This document shows positions 1,877 to 56,010 of a DNA stretch of 64,000 bases, in pieces. Under the pieces are notes generated by a model. It saw only the letters and a list, made by a program, of their open reading frames with translations. It had not been told where the DNA came from and made no database searches. The stretch covers positions 1-64,000 of the forward strand of contig PXSA01000002.1 of the NCBI GenBank assembly GCA_003023565.1, written 5' to 3'. Source of the DNA: Halobacteriales archaeon QS_9_68_17 (lineage in GTDB: Archaea; Halobacteriota; Halobacteria; Halobacteriales; Natronoarchaeaceae). The translations under genes were made by a program, and so were the position numbers. The first letter of the stretch is position 1. Each line of letters starts with the position of its first letter.

Positions 1877-3427
1877 GTGATAAACGGACCAACCCGACGG
1901 TCGGTCCTCCGGACGGTCGCGCTGACCGGTGCGGGCGGAGCGCTCGCCGGGTGTGGCCGGGTCCCCGGGTTCGGCAGTCCCCAAGAGGGCGAGCCGGTCC
2001 CCGACGGGCCGACCGTCGCGCTCGAACCGGTCGCCGAGGGACTGACCGCGCCGCTGGGCTTCGAGACGGCGGACGAAAAGCGGGATCGTCGCTTTGTCGT
2101 CGACCAGACCGGCCTCGTCCGGGTCCACGGCCCGGACGGCCTCCGTGACGACCCGTTTCTGGACCTGCGAGACGAGGTCACCGGGTTCGGCGAGCAGGGG
2201 CTGCTGGGGGCGGCGTTCCATCCCGACTTCGCCGACAACGGTCGCCTGTTCGTGCGCTACAGCGCGGCCCCGCGAACGGGGACGCCGAACGACTACAGCC
2301 ACACGTTCGTCCTCGCGGAGTTCCGCGCCGGCGACGACCGCGAACGCGTCGATCCCGACAGCGAGCGCACGGTACTGGAAATACCGCAACCGCAGGGCAA
2401 CCACAACGCCGGCGCGGTCGCGTTCGGCCCCGACGGCTACCTCTACGTCGGGACGGGCGACGGCGGCGGTGCCGACGACACGGGGCAGGGACACGTCGGC
2501 GACTGGTACGACGAGAACGCGGGCGGCAACGGACAGGACGTGACGGAGAACCTGCTAGGCGGGGTCCTGCGGATCGACGTCGATAGCGACGCGGACGACG
2601 CCCCGTACGCGGTCCCCGACGACAACCCGCTCGTCGGCGAGGAGGGACTGGACGAGTACTACGCGTGGGGCCTGCGCAACCCGTGGCGGTTCTCGTTCGA
2701 CGGCGAGGGTCGCCTGTTCGTCGCCGACGCCGGGCAGGAACTGTTCGAGGAGATAGACGTCGTGGAGAAGGGCGGTAACTACGGGTGGAACGTGAAGGAG
2801 GGGAGCCGCTGTTTCAGCCCGTCGAGTCCGGACGACCCGCCCGAGGACTGCCCGGACGCGACGCCCGAGAGCGTTCACGGCGGCGAACCGCTCGTCGACC
2901 CGGCCATCGAGTACCCGCATCGGGCTGACGGCGAAGCCGTGGGCAGTTCGGTCGTCGGGGGCTACCTCGCGGAGACCGACGCGGTCCCCGCGCTGGAAGG
3001 CCGGTTCGTCTTCGGCGACTTCAGCGCCTCGTTCGGAAACCCCTCGGGGACGCTGTTCGCCGCGACGCCGCCCGAGGACGGGGACGGGCAGTGGGCCGTC
3101 GAGCGCCTCGTTCCGGAGTCGGGGTCGCTGGACCGGTTCGTCCTCTCGCTCGGCCGCGACGCCGAGGGACGGCTCTACGCGCTGACGAGCCAGGAACTCG
3201 CGCCGGAGGGCGAGACGGGCGTCGTGTTCCGGGTCGATACGGCCGAGGGGAGCAAAGGCGGTGACGGAACCGATGCGGAGGGCGGCGACGACACCGGGAA
3301 CGCGACTGACGCCGACGGCTCCGGTGGCGACTCCGCATCGACCGGCCAGTCGGGCTTCGGCCTCGCCGGCGCGGCGGCGGGGCTGCTCGCGGGGGTTCGC
3401 CGGGCGACGAGTGACGGAAAGCGGTGA
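1877..3427 (+). CDS. PQQ-dependent (aldose) sugar dehydrogenase family lipoprotein
   Basis: A 516-residue secreted beta-propeller of the soluble aldose dehydrogenase (YliI-like) family that would oxidise sugars outside the membrane. It starts at a GTG with a Tat signal (RRSVLR) and a lipobox (GGALAGCG). Family motifs include LLGAAFHPDF, the histidine in PQGNHNAG, YLYVGTGDGG, YAWGLRNPWRFSFD and GGNYGWN. The C-terminus is a low-complexity Gly/Asp/Thr linker, then SGFGLAGAAAGLLAGVRR, which resembles a degenerate PGF-CTERM sorting tail. Having both a lipobox and a sorting-like tail is unusual. PQQ dependence is inferred from the family only. Confidence 0.85.
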   Translation: MINGPTRRSVLRTVALTGAGGALAGCGRVPGFGSPQEGEPVPDGPTVALEPVAEGLTAPLGFETADEKRDRRFVVDQTGLVRVHGPDGLRDDPFLDLRDEVTGFGEQGLLGAAFHPDFADNGRLFVRYSAAPRTGTPNDYSHTFVLAEFRAGDDRERVDPDSERTVLEIPQPQGNHNAGAVAFGPDGYLYVGTGDGGGADDTGQGHVGDWYDENAGGNGQDVTENLLGGVLRIDVDSDADDAPYAVPDDNPLVGEEGLDEYYAWGLRNPWRFSFDGEGRLFVADAGQELFEEIDVVEKGGNYGWNVKEGSRCFSPSSPDDPPEDCPDATPESVHGGEPLVDPAIEYPHRADGEAVGSSVVGGYLAETDAVPALEGRFVFGDFSASFGNPSGTLFAATPPEDGDGQWAVERLVPESGSLDRFVLSLGRDAEGRLYALTSQELAPEGETGVVFRVDTAEGSKGGDGTDAEGGDDTGNATDADGSGGDSASTGQSGFGLAGAAAGLLAGVRRATSDGKR

Positions 3428-7195: not shown

Positions 7196-8419
7196 ATGAC
7201 TTCGCCGCTCTCGACGCCAGGTCCGACGCTCGGCGTGGTCGGTGGGGGCCAACTCGGCCGGATGATGGCCGAGGCCGCCGCGCCGCTCGGCGTCGAACTC
7301 GTCGTCCTCGACCCGACTCCGGACTGCCCCGCATCGCCCGTCGCCCGCGACCAGATCGTCGGCGACTTCGACGACCCCGAAGCGGCGCGCGAACTGGCCG
7401 ACCGCGCGGACTACCTCACCTTCGAGATCGAACTGGCCGACCCCGGCCTGCTGGCGGAGGTCGGCGAGGCCGCGGGCGTTCCCGTCCACCCCTCGCCCGA
7501 CACCCTACGGACGATCCAGGACAAGCTCGTCCAGAAGCGCGAACTGGCCGAGGCCGGGGTCCCGGTGCCAGCGTTCCGGCGGGCGGACGACGCCGACGAC
7601 GTGCGGGACGCGCTCGACGACCTCGGCTCGCCGGCGATGGTGAAGGCCCGCACCGGCGGCTACGACGGCCGCGGTAACGCGCCGGTCGAGGGGCCGGACG
7701 AGGCCGAGGCCGTGTTCGACACCGTCGGTGCCGGCGAGGGCGGTGCGATGGTCGAGGAACTCGTCGACTTCGAGCGCGAGGTGTCCGTGGTCGGCGTCAA
7801 GGGCGAGGACGGGGTCGCGACGTTCCCCGTCGGCGAGAACGTCCACGTAGAGGAGGTCCTCCGCGAGACGGTCGTCCCGGCCCGGACGAGCGACGCCGTG
7901 CGCGAGCGCGCCGAGTCGGTCGCCCGCGACGTGCTGGAGCTCCTCGACGGCCGCGGCGTGTACGGGACCGAGCTGTTCGAGACGAGCGGGGGCGAGGTCC
8001 TCGTCAACGAGATCGCGCCGCGCCCGCACAACTCCGGTCACTGGACCATTGAGGGGGCGCTCACCTCGCAGTTCGAGCAGCACGTCCGCGCCGTGACGGG
8101 CCGTCCCCTCGGGGCGACCGACCTGCGCGCGACGACGGCGATGGCGAACGTCCTCGGGGACGTTCGCGAAGCGAACGACCCGCGAGCACGTCGGGATCCT
8201 TCGGATTCCGAGGACGTGGACGAGCGTCGGGCGGCCGAACTCCACGGCGTCGACGAGGCGCTCGGAACCCCCGCCGTCGGCTTTCACTGGTACGGCAAGC
8301 GCGAGGTGTACCCGCTCCGGAAGATGGGCCACGTGACCGCCGTCGAGGACGGCGGCGACCCCGACGAACTGCTCGAGAAGGCCCGCGGCGTCCGCGACGG
8401 GCTGACGTTCGACCCCTGA
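7196..8419 (+). CDS. purK: 5-(carboxyamino)imidazole ribonucleotide synthase
   Basis: ATP-grasp enzyme that carboxylates aminoimidazole ribonucleotide with bicarbonate in purine synthesis, feeding PurE downstream. N-terminal nucleotide-fold signature GGGQLGRMM, central LTFEIELAD and KARTGGYDGRGN, ATP-grasp metal residues in NEIAPRPHNSGHW, and C-terminal FHWYGKREVYPLRKMGHVT. At 407 residues it is slightly long because of an insertion (REANDPRARRDPSDSEDVDE, 8161-8217) between two conserved segments; the inserted DNA contains two palindromes with three-base loops and is bracketed by ggacgt repeats 54 bases apart. Followed 42 bases later by purE, so an operon is likely. Confidence 0.93.
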   Translation: MTSPLSTPGPTLGVVGGGQLGRMMAEAAAPLGVELVVLDPTPDCPASPVARDQIVGDFDDPEAARELADRADYLTFEIELADPGLLAEVGEAAGVPVHPSPDTLRTIQDKLVQKRELAEAGVPVPAFRRADDADDVRDALDDLGSPAMVKARTGGYDGRGNAPVEGPDEAEAVFDTVGAGEGGAMVEELVDFEREVSVVGVKGEDGVATFPVGENVHVEEVLRETVVPARTSDAVRERAESVARDVLELLDGRGVYGTELFETSGGEVLVNEIAPRPHNSGHWTIEGALTSQFEQHVRAVTGRPLGATDLRATTAMANVLGDVREANDPRARRDPSDSEDVDERRAAELHGVDEALGTPAVGFHWYGKREVYPLRKMGHVTAVEDGGDPDELLEKARGVRDGLTFDP

Positions 8420-44800: not shown

Positions 44801-45943
44801 CGTCCCGTCGTCTGCCGACTCGCGGCCGAGATCGACGGCGACGATCCGCTCGTGGTTCGCGGGCGGGGCCGGCAGGTCCCCGGCGACGTGCGCGACGAAC
44901 TCGTCTCGGTCCATCGAGAGCGCCGGCACCGCCTCGCGCAGGTCGTCGACCGACGCGGCGTAGGCGTGGCCGGTCCGTGGGCGCGCGTCGAGTTCGTAGT
45001 GCCCCGGCGCGGTCAGGCCGGCCGGCAGCGCCAGCAGTCGCTCGTGGATCGTCCCGTGGAGCGCCGCCGCGGCCTCGGTCGGGTCGGCCGTCGCCTCCAG
45101 GTCGGGCCGGGCGACCGCGTCGAGGAAGAGGCTGTCGCCGGCGAGGACGACGCCGTCGACGCGAAAGGCCGTCATCTCCGACGTGTGACCGGGGGCGTGC
45201 ACGGCCGAGAGCGTCGCCGCGCCGATGTCGAGGTCGTCGCCGTCGTCGAGCAGGGTCGCGTCGAACGCTAGCCCCCGGTCCTCGGCACCCGCCGGCAGGA
45301 CCGCCTCGGCGTCGCTCCGCTCCGCGACGGCCCGGACGCCGTCACTTCGCTCGGCTCGTGACGAGCCCGCGACTGCGCAGCAGTCGCGAACCCCGCTGAC
45401 GTGGTCCGCGTGGACGTTCGTGTCGACGGCGTACGCCAGGTCGAGGCCGCACTCCGCGGCGTGGTCGACGTACCGGTCCGCGAACGCCCGGAGCGGGTCG
45501 ACCACGGCGGCCCGCTCCCCGTCGTGGACGAGGTAGCCGAGACAGCCGTCGGAGGGGCGCTGGTACTGGACGACGCGCGCCGGCCCGTCGGTCGGTACCT
45601 CGGCCGCGAGGACGACCGCTGCCCACGCGTCCATCCCGCCGGCGAGATTCACCGCGTCGACCCCCTCGCCGCGGAGCAGTTCGGCGGCGTAGTCGCTCGC
45701 CTCGCCGCGGCTGCGGACCGCCACGACCGGTTCATCGAGACCCTCGACCAGTTCGGCCGCGCCGCCGGTCACCTCGGCCTGAACGAAGCGGTTCTCCGGC
45801 ACCTGCGTCGCCGTCACGTTCGGCCCGTCGACGCGCCACGCCTCGAACTCGTCACGGTCCCGCACGTCGACGACGGAGGCGCGCTCGCCGGCCCGAAGCC
45901 GTTCAGCCAGTGCTCGCGGGGATATCGCGCCGGCGTCGCTCAT
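44669..45943 (-). CDS. Rhodanese-like / metallo-beta-lactamase fold protein with abnormal C-terminus
   Basis: Residues about 1-110 are a rhodanese-like domain (SVVDVRDRDEFEAWRVDG, VNLAGGMDAW), but the position of its catalytic cysteine reads VRSRGEAS, so no cysteine is present. The rest is a glyoxalase/persulfide-dioxygenase-like MBL domain with NVHADHVSG, HAPGHTSEM and LAGDSLFLDA as metal motifs; such proteins handle glutathione- or CoA-type persulfides. An in-frame insertion DCCAVAGSSRAERSDG (about 45345-45392), made of palindromes, follows DHVSGVR. After GRESADDGTAL (about 44800) the last 42 residues are arginine/serine-rich out-of-frame AAC(3) sequence, so the normal C-terminus has been lost. 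Confidence 0.75.
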   Translation of the reverse strand: MSDAGAISPRALAERLRAGERASVVDVRDRDEFEAWRVDGPNVTATQVPENRFVQAEVTGGAAELVEGLDEPVVAVRSRGEASDYAAELLRGEGVDAVNLAGGMDAWAAVVLAAEVPTDGPARVVQYQRPSDGCLGYLVHDGERAAVVDPLRAFADRYVDHAAECGLDLAYAVDTNVHADHVSGVRDCCAVAGSSRAERSDGVRAVAERSDAEAVLPAGAEDRGLAFDATLLDDGDDLDIGAATLSAVHAPGHTSEMTAFRVDGVVLAGDSLFLDAVARPDLEATADPTEAAAALHGTIHERLLALPAGLTAPGHYELDARPRTGHAYAASVDDLREAVPALSMDRDEFVAHVAGDLPAPPANHERIVAVDLGRESADDGTALSTTCGRSACRPATRSSSTPRCPPSDGSRAAHPRSSTRCLTS

Positions 45944-55809: not shown

Positions 55810-56010
55810 CGACCTTTTGCGCTGCGTAGCGCGAACCACGGCGTGCCCGAAAATCGCTTTGCGGTTTTCGGCATCACGAGACGGCTCCGCCGTCTCGAAC
55901 GACTTCGCGCCGAGTTCGCTTGACTCGGCAAGCGGTCGATCGAGATCACTTCGTCACCCCCTCAAACGCGCTTCGCGCGGTTTCGAGGGTTCCGTGCGAC
56001 GCATCGTTCG
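55810..56010. repeat. Palindrome array with three-base loops
   Basis: Visible units: gcgct/agcgc around 55819-55832; ccgaaaatcgc with loop ttt and an 11-nt partner (55847-55871, one G-T pair); cgagacggc-tcc-gccgtctcg (55877-55897); gccgagt/actcggc (55909-55929); and cgcgc-ttc-gcgcg (55967-55979) within a larger imperfect repeat ending ggtttcgaggg. The region separates the convergent PAPS-family gene and a small membrane protein gene, so some hairpins may end transcription. Confidence 0.65.

Follow-up and report, generated by a model that had tools for sequence, protein, structure and literature searches.

The question raised by this locus is how purK has come to carry a palindromic stretch of 18 codons, and whether that stretch entered the gene as a unit or arose by drift. 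The DNA analysed, called here the window, comprises positions 1-64,000 of contig PXSA01000002.1 of Halobacteriales archaeon QS_9_68_17, whose own genome is labelled G000. The host gene occupies positions 7196..8419 of the forward strand, on which all features described within it also lie, and encodes 407 aa matching TIGR01161 at 359 bits, over the cut-off, together with the Pfam families ATP-grasp and PurK_C. The sequence-only reading had pointed to two palindromes (cgttcgc-gaa-gcgaacg at 8161-8177 and cgggatcc-ttc-ggattccg at 8192-8210), to an outer inverted repeat (acgtcctcgg at 8148-8157 and ccgaggacgt at 8208-8217) and to ggacgt at 8158-8163 and 8212-8217, 54 bases apart. All of these strings are found at the claimed positions, and the purK frame encodes the insert peptide that had been given, REANDPRARRDPSDSEDVD. 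Folded as DNA, the 74-nt stretch is better than 200 of 200 shuffles (z -4.4), and folded as RNA it is beaten by only 1 of 200 (z -3.3); equal or better DNA folding occurs at 20 places in the 64 kb, the insert site included. The repeats alone are not significant, because the window holds 122 cases of 6-mers recurring exactly 54 bases apart and 52 occurrences of GGACGT, and it is the comparison with relatives that shows the insertion to be real.

That comparison, which had been set beforehand as a search for an empty site, was based on purK genes found in all five genomes of the genus and all nine of the family, both sets counting G000. Two of the five genus genomes carry the 54-base insert and three lack exactly those bases; the four other family genomes and 23 named haloarchaeal loci are without it as well. 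Sister species thus have a purK shorter by exactly 54 bases, which supports an insertion and not drift. In a 32-row protein alignment (the nine family genomes plus 23 haloarchaeal loci taken from 80 named ones, 57 bacterial loci being excluded) the 18-residue insert is confined to G000 and its sister G001. The codon alignment with seven empty relatives places a DNA gap of exactly 54 bases directly 3' of a conserved Gly codon, so that the insert corresponds to 8159..8212 and PurK residues 322-339, with borders that can shift within the common GACGT. Gradual length variation was not seen, 29 of the 30 insert-less sequences sharing a stretch of 41 residues and the remaining one having 40. An assembly artefact is excluded, since G001 is a separate genome, 99% complete, and is also filled. 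Between the window and G001 the insert is identical at 45 of 54 bases, the whole gene at 91.3%, and 6 of the 18 insert residues differ. Because of this fast divergence between two sister copies, the PurK insert peptide is taken here to be tolerated and not selected for.

The anatomy of the insert differs in several respects from the one first proposed. The 6-bp GGACGT target duplication is not borne out, as its first G falls on a third codon position, the codon being GGG in the window but GGC in the sister copy, and only GACGT is common to both sides in the sister. The left GACGT lies at 8159..8163 and the right one at 8213..8217, and the filled and empty alignments delimit within them a common core, CG, at 8161-8162 and 8215-8216. 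The outer 10-bp inverted repeat does not derive from the insert, since its left arm, acgtcctcgg, belongs to purK and is present, slightly altered, in genes without the insert. The cgttcgc/gcgaacg palindrome is absent from the sister copy; comparison with the family structure puts hairpin 1 in another register, 8164..8185, where it has decayed in the window to five outer pairs with three internal mismatches, while its counterpart in G001 is intact with a loop of 4 nt. With the sister copy and a twelve-copy alignment at hand, the outer repeat and the first palindrome were dropped as parts of the element. The second palindrome proved to be the family's own hairpin 2 (8191..8211), which sequence and model match show to be complete except for one G-T pair, and alignment and model match place the spacer joining the hairpins at 8186..8190. 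The double-hairpin covariance model R1, built from those same twelve copies, matches 8161..8216 with a score of 38.1 bits and an E-value of 8.8e-13 for the window, against a background of at most 19.6 bits. Elsewhere in G000, 53 bases (L002, G000:C16:11816-11868) are 82% identical to window positions 8110-8163, that is, to purK upstream of the insert and into its start.

More distant purK genes were informative. The last 127 residues of PurK, used as query, gave matches in 390 of 391 Halobacteria genomes, and 30 loci, the best 29 plus the window, were inspected (family and genus names f1, f5, f7, f10, g7 and g9 are working labels). An insert stands at exactly this codon in at least six of them, namely G000 and G001 (f1), G387 and G101 (f5, genus g7) and G323 and G166 (f7, genus g9); six is a minimum because the remaining genomes were not inspected singly. 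No insert is present in 22 of the 30, and two loci of f10 (L146, L151) carry an unrelated, longer insert some codons 3' of the studied site. The distant inserts are 57 bases long and form two almost perfect tandem hairpins, and they show the former state of the window copy.

The same distant genes overturned the notion that the insert is unique. With the G323 copy as query, matches at E<=0.1 were found in five of six genomes (none in G387), 26 of them in G101, some being two at the same place. The dispersed copies are both intergenic and intragenic, and they include copies in a dehydrogenase-like gene and in Mre11 of G000. With the covariance model, matches at E<=1e-6 were obtained in 362 of 391 Halobacteria genomes, those listed all reaching at least 74 bits; weak matches around E 1e-6 may belong to double-hairpin repeats of another kind, and the copy numbers per genome are lower bounds, at most about 14 candidates having been scored in each. 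When the nine family genomes were searched at E<=0.1, G000 gave 65 matches, many of them weak or representing one place on both strands. The window itself contains a second, intergenic copy of the family on the reverse strand (55842..55901, 35.4 bits) and, also on the reverse strand, a weak and doubtful match at 45337..45392 (24.4 bits, E 3e-7 in the window). Matches were found in 38 of 72,556 plasmid records, and the 25 of these that were listed all have haloarchaeal names, Haloferax mediterranei included; a single typed copy used as query matched none of 50,697 phage records.

This dispersal bears directly on the simplest alternative, according to which nothing mobile was involved and hairpin-driven template switching or slippage built the insert from purK's own sequence. 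Such a local accident could be suggested by the inverted stretches that the window copy has in common with its left flank, and by the fact that BLAST with the window copy and a search for the exact palindrome revealed no convincing second copy in the five genus genomes. However, the flank pairing is missing in the sister copy, and homologues of the same architecture reside in many other genes and genomes, which refutes local template switching as the origin and leaves this explanation with next to no credibility. The insert is instead very probably a worn copy of a small, non-autonomous haloarchaeal mobile element, dispersed and lying in frame in conserved genes, as judged from sequence comparison.

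Some copies have surroundings of their own. The intergenic G101 copies L174, L177, L182, L186 and L189 have long flanks in common, and L174 at least appears to be enclosed by its own larger inverted repeat of about 200 bases. The copies at L360 (1279-1385, near a G101 tnpA) and L207 (G006) share outer flanks, GAGTAG on the 5' side and CAGTAGGG.GGGGATACA on the 3' side, as if they were in one larger element.

Two stem-loops in tandem make up the element, with stems of 10-11 bp, loops of 3 nt and a spacer of 4 nt, and the whole begins with CGT on the left and ends with GACG on the right. In twelve aligned copies, the window copy excluded, 94.6% of the cells are paired and 13 of 21 pairs have changed on both sides. 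The covariation amounts to 0.441 compared with 0.147 in shuffles, none of 500 shuffles being as high, and alignments slid out of register gave 0.115 at most. Among 100 distinct rows fitted by the model, 95.4% of the cells are paired, all 21 pairs are doubly changed and the covariation is 0.543 compared with 0.159, an alignment which is biased towards the model's own structure. The background maxima of the model were 15.0 bits in 370 kb of bacterial loci, 19.6 bits in 161 kb of named haloarchaeal loci and 17.1 bits in 170 kb of other haloarchaeal loci. The strong covariation, together with the start of the second window copy 33 bases past the stop codon of a 323-aa ORF, could be expected of a functional RNA structure or a transcription terminator retained for regulation, and not of a tolerated mobile element. 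Against this stand the ongoing loss of hairpin 1 in the window's purK copy and the absence of any known RNA family from nine loci searched against Rfam, whose four matches all fell under the gathering scores; moreover, movement alone accounts for the covariation if a transposase recognises the hairpins. A retained RNA function is therefore regarded as quite improbable, and the mobile element remains the preferred reading.

Filled and empty sites were also compared in other genes. Such pairs were obtained with chimeric flanking-peptide queries in 17 genomes, followed by DNA alignments, and the genes were named from NCBIfam (NrdJ, LysW-lysine hydrolase, Kae1-Bud32, Mre11_Halo, dihydroorotase and a quinone-reductase/ADH type). 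Kae1 has 57 bases in G000 and G001 that are absent from G002, G003 and G004; class II ribonucleotide reductase has 54 bases in G001, absent from G000, G002, G003 and G004; Mre11 has 57 bases in G000, absent from G001-G004. Dihydroorotase carries 51 bases in G008 which G006 and G007 lack, and a second dehydrogenase carries 51 bases in G007 which G005, G006 and G008 lack. In the dehydrogenase-like gene of G000 (L210, G000:C37:8236-8292; named from its peptide only), 55 bases are present that G001-G004 do not have, and this gene is broken, since the insert destroys the frame and is followed by stop codons while the four sisters are intact. The lysine-hydrolase locus of G003 is complex, with a difference of 102 bases and a second hairpin adjoining the copy, and it was excluded from the target-site reading for that reason; the second hairpin, GTTGCGCCCGAGGCGCAAC, stands in a length-variable stretch of L304 (G003:C1:2953150-2953550). 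The junctions read NNCG|TTC...TGATGA|CG, and the stretch strictly common to both sides varies, from CG in the broken gene through GACG in the reductase to GACGT in purK. Across the other pairs the duplicated core is only CG; it extends to GACGT at most and not to the GGACGT first proposed. As these alignments show, the element has inserted cleanly into several conserved genes with CG, or up to GACGT, on both sides, and this CG may be either a 2-bp duplication or, as in the IS200/IS605 type, a target on one side and the element's own end on the other. In a few cases the same site of the same gene is filled in two genomes, as in an ABC transporter (L231/L185), a 2'-5' RNA ligase-like gene (L176/L239) and an acyl-CoA dehydrogenase (L181/L237), and some of these copy pairs are more alike than their flanks.

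The occupation of a single purK codon in f1, f5 and f7 could suggest one ancient insertion inherited by all Halobacteria and lost afterwards in most lineages. The relationships among the copies speak against such common descent. The G323 and G166 purK inserts have an identity of 0.93-0.95 to the nearest f7 copies in other genes, but no more than 0.71 to purK inserts from other lineages; the corresponding values are 0.88 (f5 copies in other genes) and at most 0.71 for G101, 0.83 and at most 0.68 for G387, and 0.83 (a G003 copy, same genus) and at most 0.68 for G001. The window copy has decayed too far for such a placement, its best identity being 0.70 outside purK and 0.84 to the purK copy of G001. 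In addition, the insert-less genes are uniform, nearly all of one length, and a single old insertion would require very many exact losses, which makes it very improbable. Since the inserts resemble copies that the same family carries in other genes more than they resemble the purK inserts of other families, the comparison shows that purK has in all likelihood been struck independently at one codon in at least three separate lineages. The target sequence alone does not fix this choice of codon, because GAC followed by G occurs as a codon 20 times in the window's purK. In the AlphaFold2 model of the window PurK (mean pLDDT 92.1), the insert forms a disordered loop, with residues 325-340 below 50, between the strand 313-320 and the helix 352-357 of the C-terminal domain. 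The tolerance of this loop is the likely reason for the repeated use of the codon.

The preference for one reading frame extends beyond purK. The frame survey drew on 100 sources among the best hits, which gave 77 copies scoring 35 bits or more, so that its figures on frame and location do not represent a random sample. Twenty of the 77 passed a test for coding straight through the copy, and the script assigned 19 of these to one of the six frames; the twentieth, purK of G001, was assigned to the antisense strand by the script and in truth has the same frame as the others, and the window copy (score 0.19, bar 0.2) was added by its true frame, which turns 19 of 20 into 21 of 21. The intragenic copies examined, 21 in about 13 different genes, therefore all share a single one of the six frames. 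Stop codons are not the reason, since 19 of the 21 copies are also open in one other sense frame and all 21 in one antisense frame. After subtraction of one CG, every one of the 21 leaves a multiple of three (51-60 bases), partly by construction because they were chosen for open frames; of 22 other copies, 17 are a multiple of three bases long and would shift the frame. L201 (a plausible ORF that failed the openness test), L253 (flank too short) and the second copies of overlapping loci were not counted, and L216, L217, L223 and L225 (below 35 bits) as well as L185 are not among the 77. The same frame is also used in the FAD-binding oxidoreductase WP_339106160.1 of Haloterrigena sp. KLK7, which carries DVRKSGAPSSPSERHSRSAD. 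In open genes, the in-frame copies add 17-20 mostly polar residues.

As to how the element moves, a transposase acting in trans would recognise its hairpins, probably in their folded single-stranded form, and cut beside CG or GACG; the enzyme may be of the HUH/Y1 (IS200/IS605-like) type. An essential gene would then retain an insertion only if it stays in frame and its product gains a harmless, disordered polar loop at the surface. A more specific version of this proposal, in which the copies are terminal-only PATEs, would make them the near-terminal palindromes of IS200/IS605 elements with the middle deleted, moved by TnpA and lacking a true target duplication, so that the left CG/GACG would be the target tetranucleotide and the right one the element's own end. 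Terminal-only PATEs of 52 bp, possibly moving, are mentioned for Haloquadratum in passages of PMC3119063. Such a target would fit the clean pairs, which always have ...CG at the left flank and ...CG at the right end, and Y1 transposases (PF01797) are encoded in 10 of the 14 genomes searched. However, no Y1 match was found in the other four (G000, which is only 89% complete, G003, G012 and G049), though copies are present there. Moreover, among 27 Y1 transposase loci the model exceeded 50 bits at only two, both in G101, and the idea of a Y1 transposase bordered by the element was set aside, as neither resembles a pair of element ends: one match lies in frame within the 3' end of tnpB, the other some 140 bases upstream from the tnpA match. 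At L350 (about 3116-3177, G101) the copy supplies the last codons of tnpB. An origin from deleted IS200/IS605 elements is thus rather unlikely, and a non-autonomous element with trans-acting help, its exact ancestry apart, is the reading followed here.

Taken together, the frame preference, the target and the recurrence at one codon give some preference to the view that Halobacteria possess a class-wide, travelling disordered linker, in which insertion at GAC|G in frame, combined with selection for one frame, would repeatedly have placed polar loops of 17-20 residues in essential enzymes. On the same, somewhat favoured reading the element would be an archaeal counterpart of the Rickettsia palindromic elements (RPE), possibly of separate origin. 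RPE-like behaviour appears across an archaeal class to which laboratory organisms belong, a plasmid of Haloferax mediterranei also carrying a copy. The element also accounts for the 17-20 extra residues that particular lineages have in PurK, Kae1, Mre11, ribonucleotide reductase and other haloarchaeal proteins, and annotators and structure modellers should expect such insertions. The mover of such repeats, the one-frame preference and the importance of the added peptides thereby become testable in Halobacteria.

Rickettsia offers the best-known case of palindromic repeats spreading in frame through coding genes. A full-text literature search, whose scope left out most subscription papers and all of bioRxiv, yielded no account of the element, nor of any haloarchaeal palindromic element inserted in frame. 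The nearest haloarchaeal relatives in kind are the Haloquadratum PATEs and small mobile repeats described by Dyall-Smith and colleagues (2011), which are short, non-coding, palindromic and moved in trans (PMC3119063), and the element resembles them as a short haloarchaeal repeat with palindromes. Unlike it, PATEs have a core between two near-terminal palindromes and make no target duplication, and small mobile repeats are 80-110 bp long, have terminal inverted repeats and target other mobile elements (PMC3119063); the passages of that paper available here contain no case of in-frame insertion into housekeeping genes for either group. The CGTC-tagged REPs of Di Nocera and colleagues (2013) are short hairpins with an unpaired CGTC end, they form dimers, some are intragenic and no dedicated transposase is known for them, according to the excerpted text (PMC3733652). 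The right end of the element, GACG, is the complement of CGTC and occurs in all 12 aligned rows, partly by choice because the rows were trimmed from CG to GACG, with CGTT at the left end. However, the element has stems of 10 and 11 pairs (94-95% of cells paired) and loops of 3 nt, compared with 8-9 bp and 4-5 nt in CGTC REPs, and its tags point outward with the hairpins tail-to-tail, whereas the usual CGTC REP dimer is head-to-head (PMC3733652). Stem positions 1 and 2 of CGTC REPs are complementary A-T pairs (PMC3733652); the commonest first pairs of the element are A-U then U-A in hairpin 2 and U-A then C-G in hairpin 1. As far as the same excerpts go, CGTC REPs are listed for five bacterial phyla, archaea appearing only in the references, and RPE-4 and RPE-6 are grouped among them (PMC3733652). 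RPE are inserted in frame in many unrelated housekeeping genes, to which they add a similar peptide (PMC10969869, PMC3733652). They measure about 150 bp (PMC10969869), whereas the present element has about 55 bp, consists of two hairpins and is haloarchaeal; the likeness, one of description, lies in an element that stands in frame in unrelated coding genes whose orthologues elsewhere are empty.
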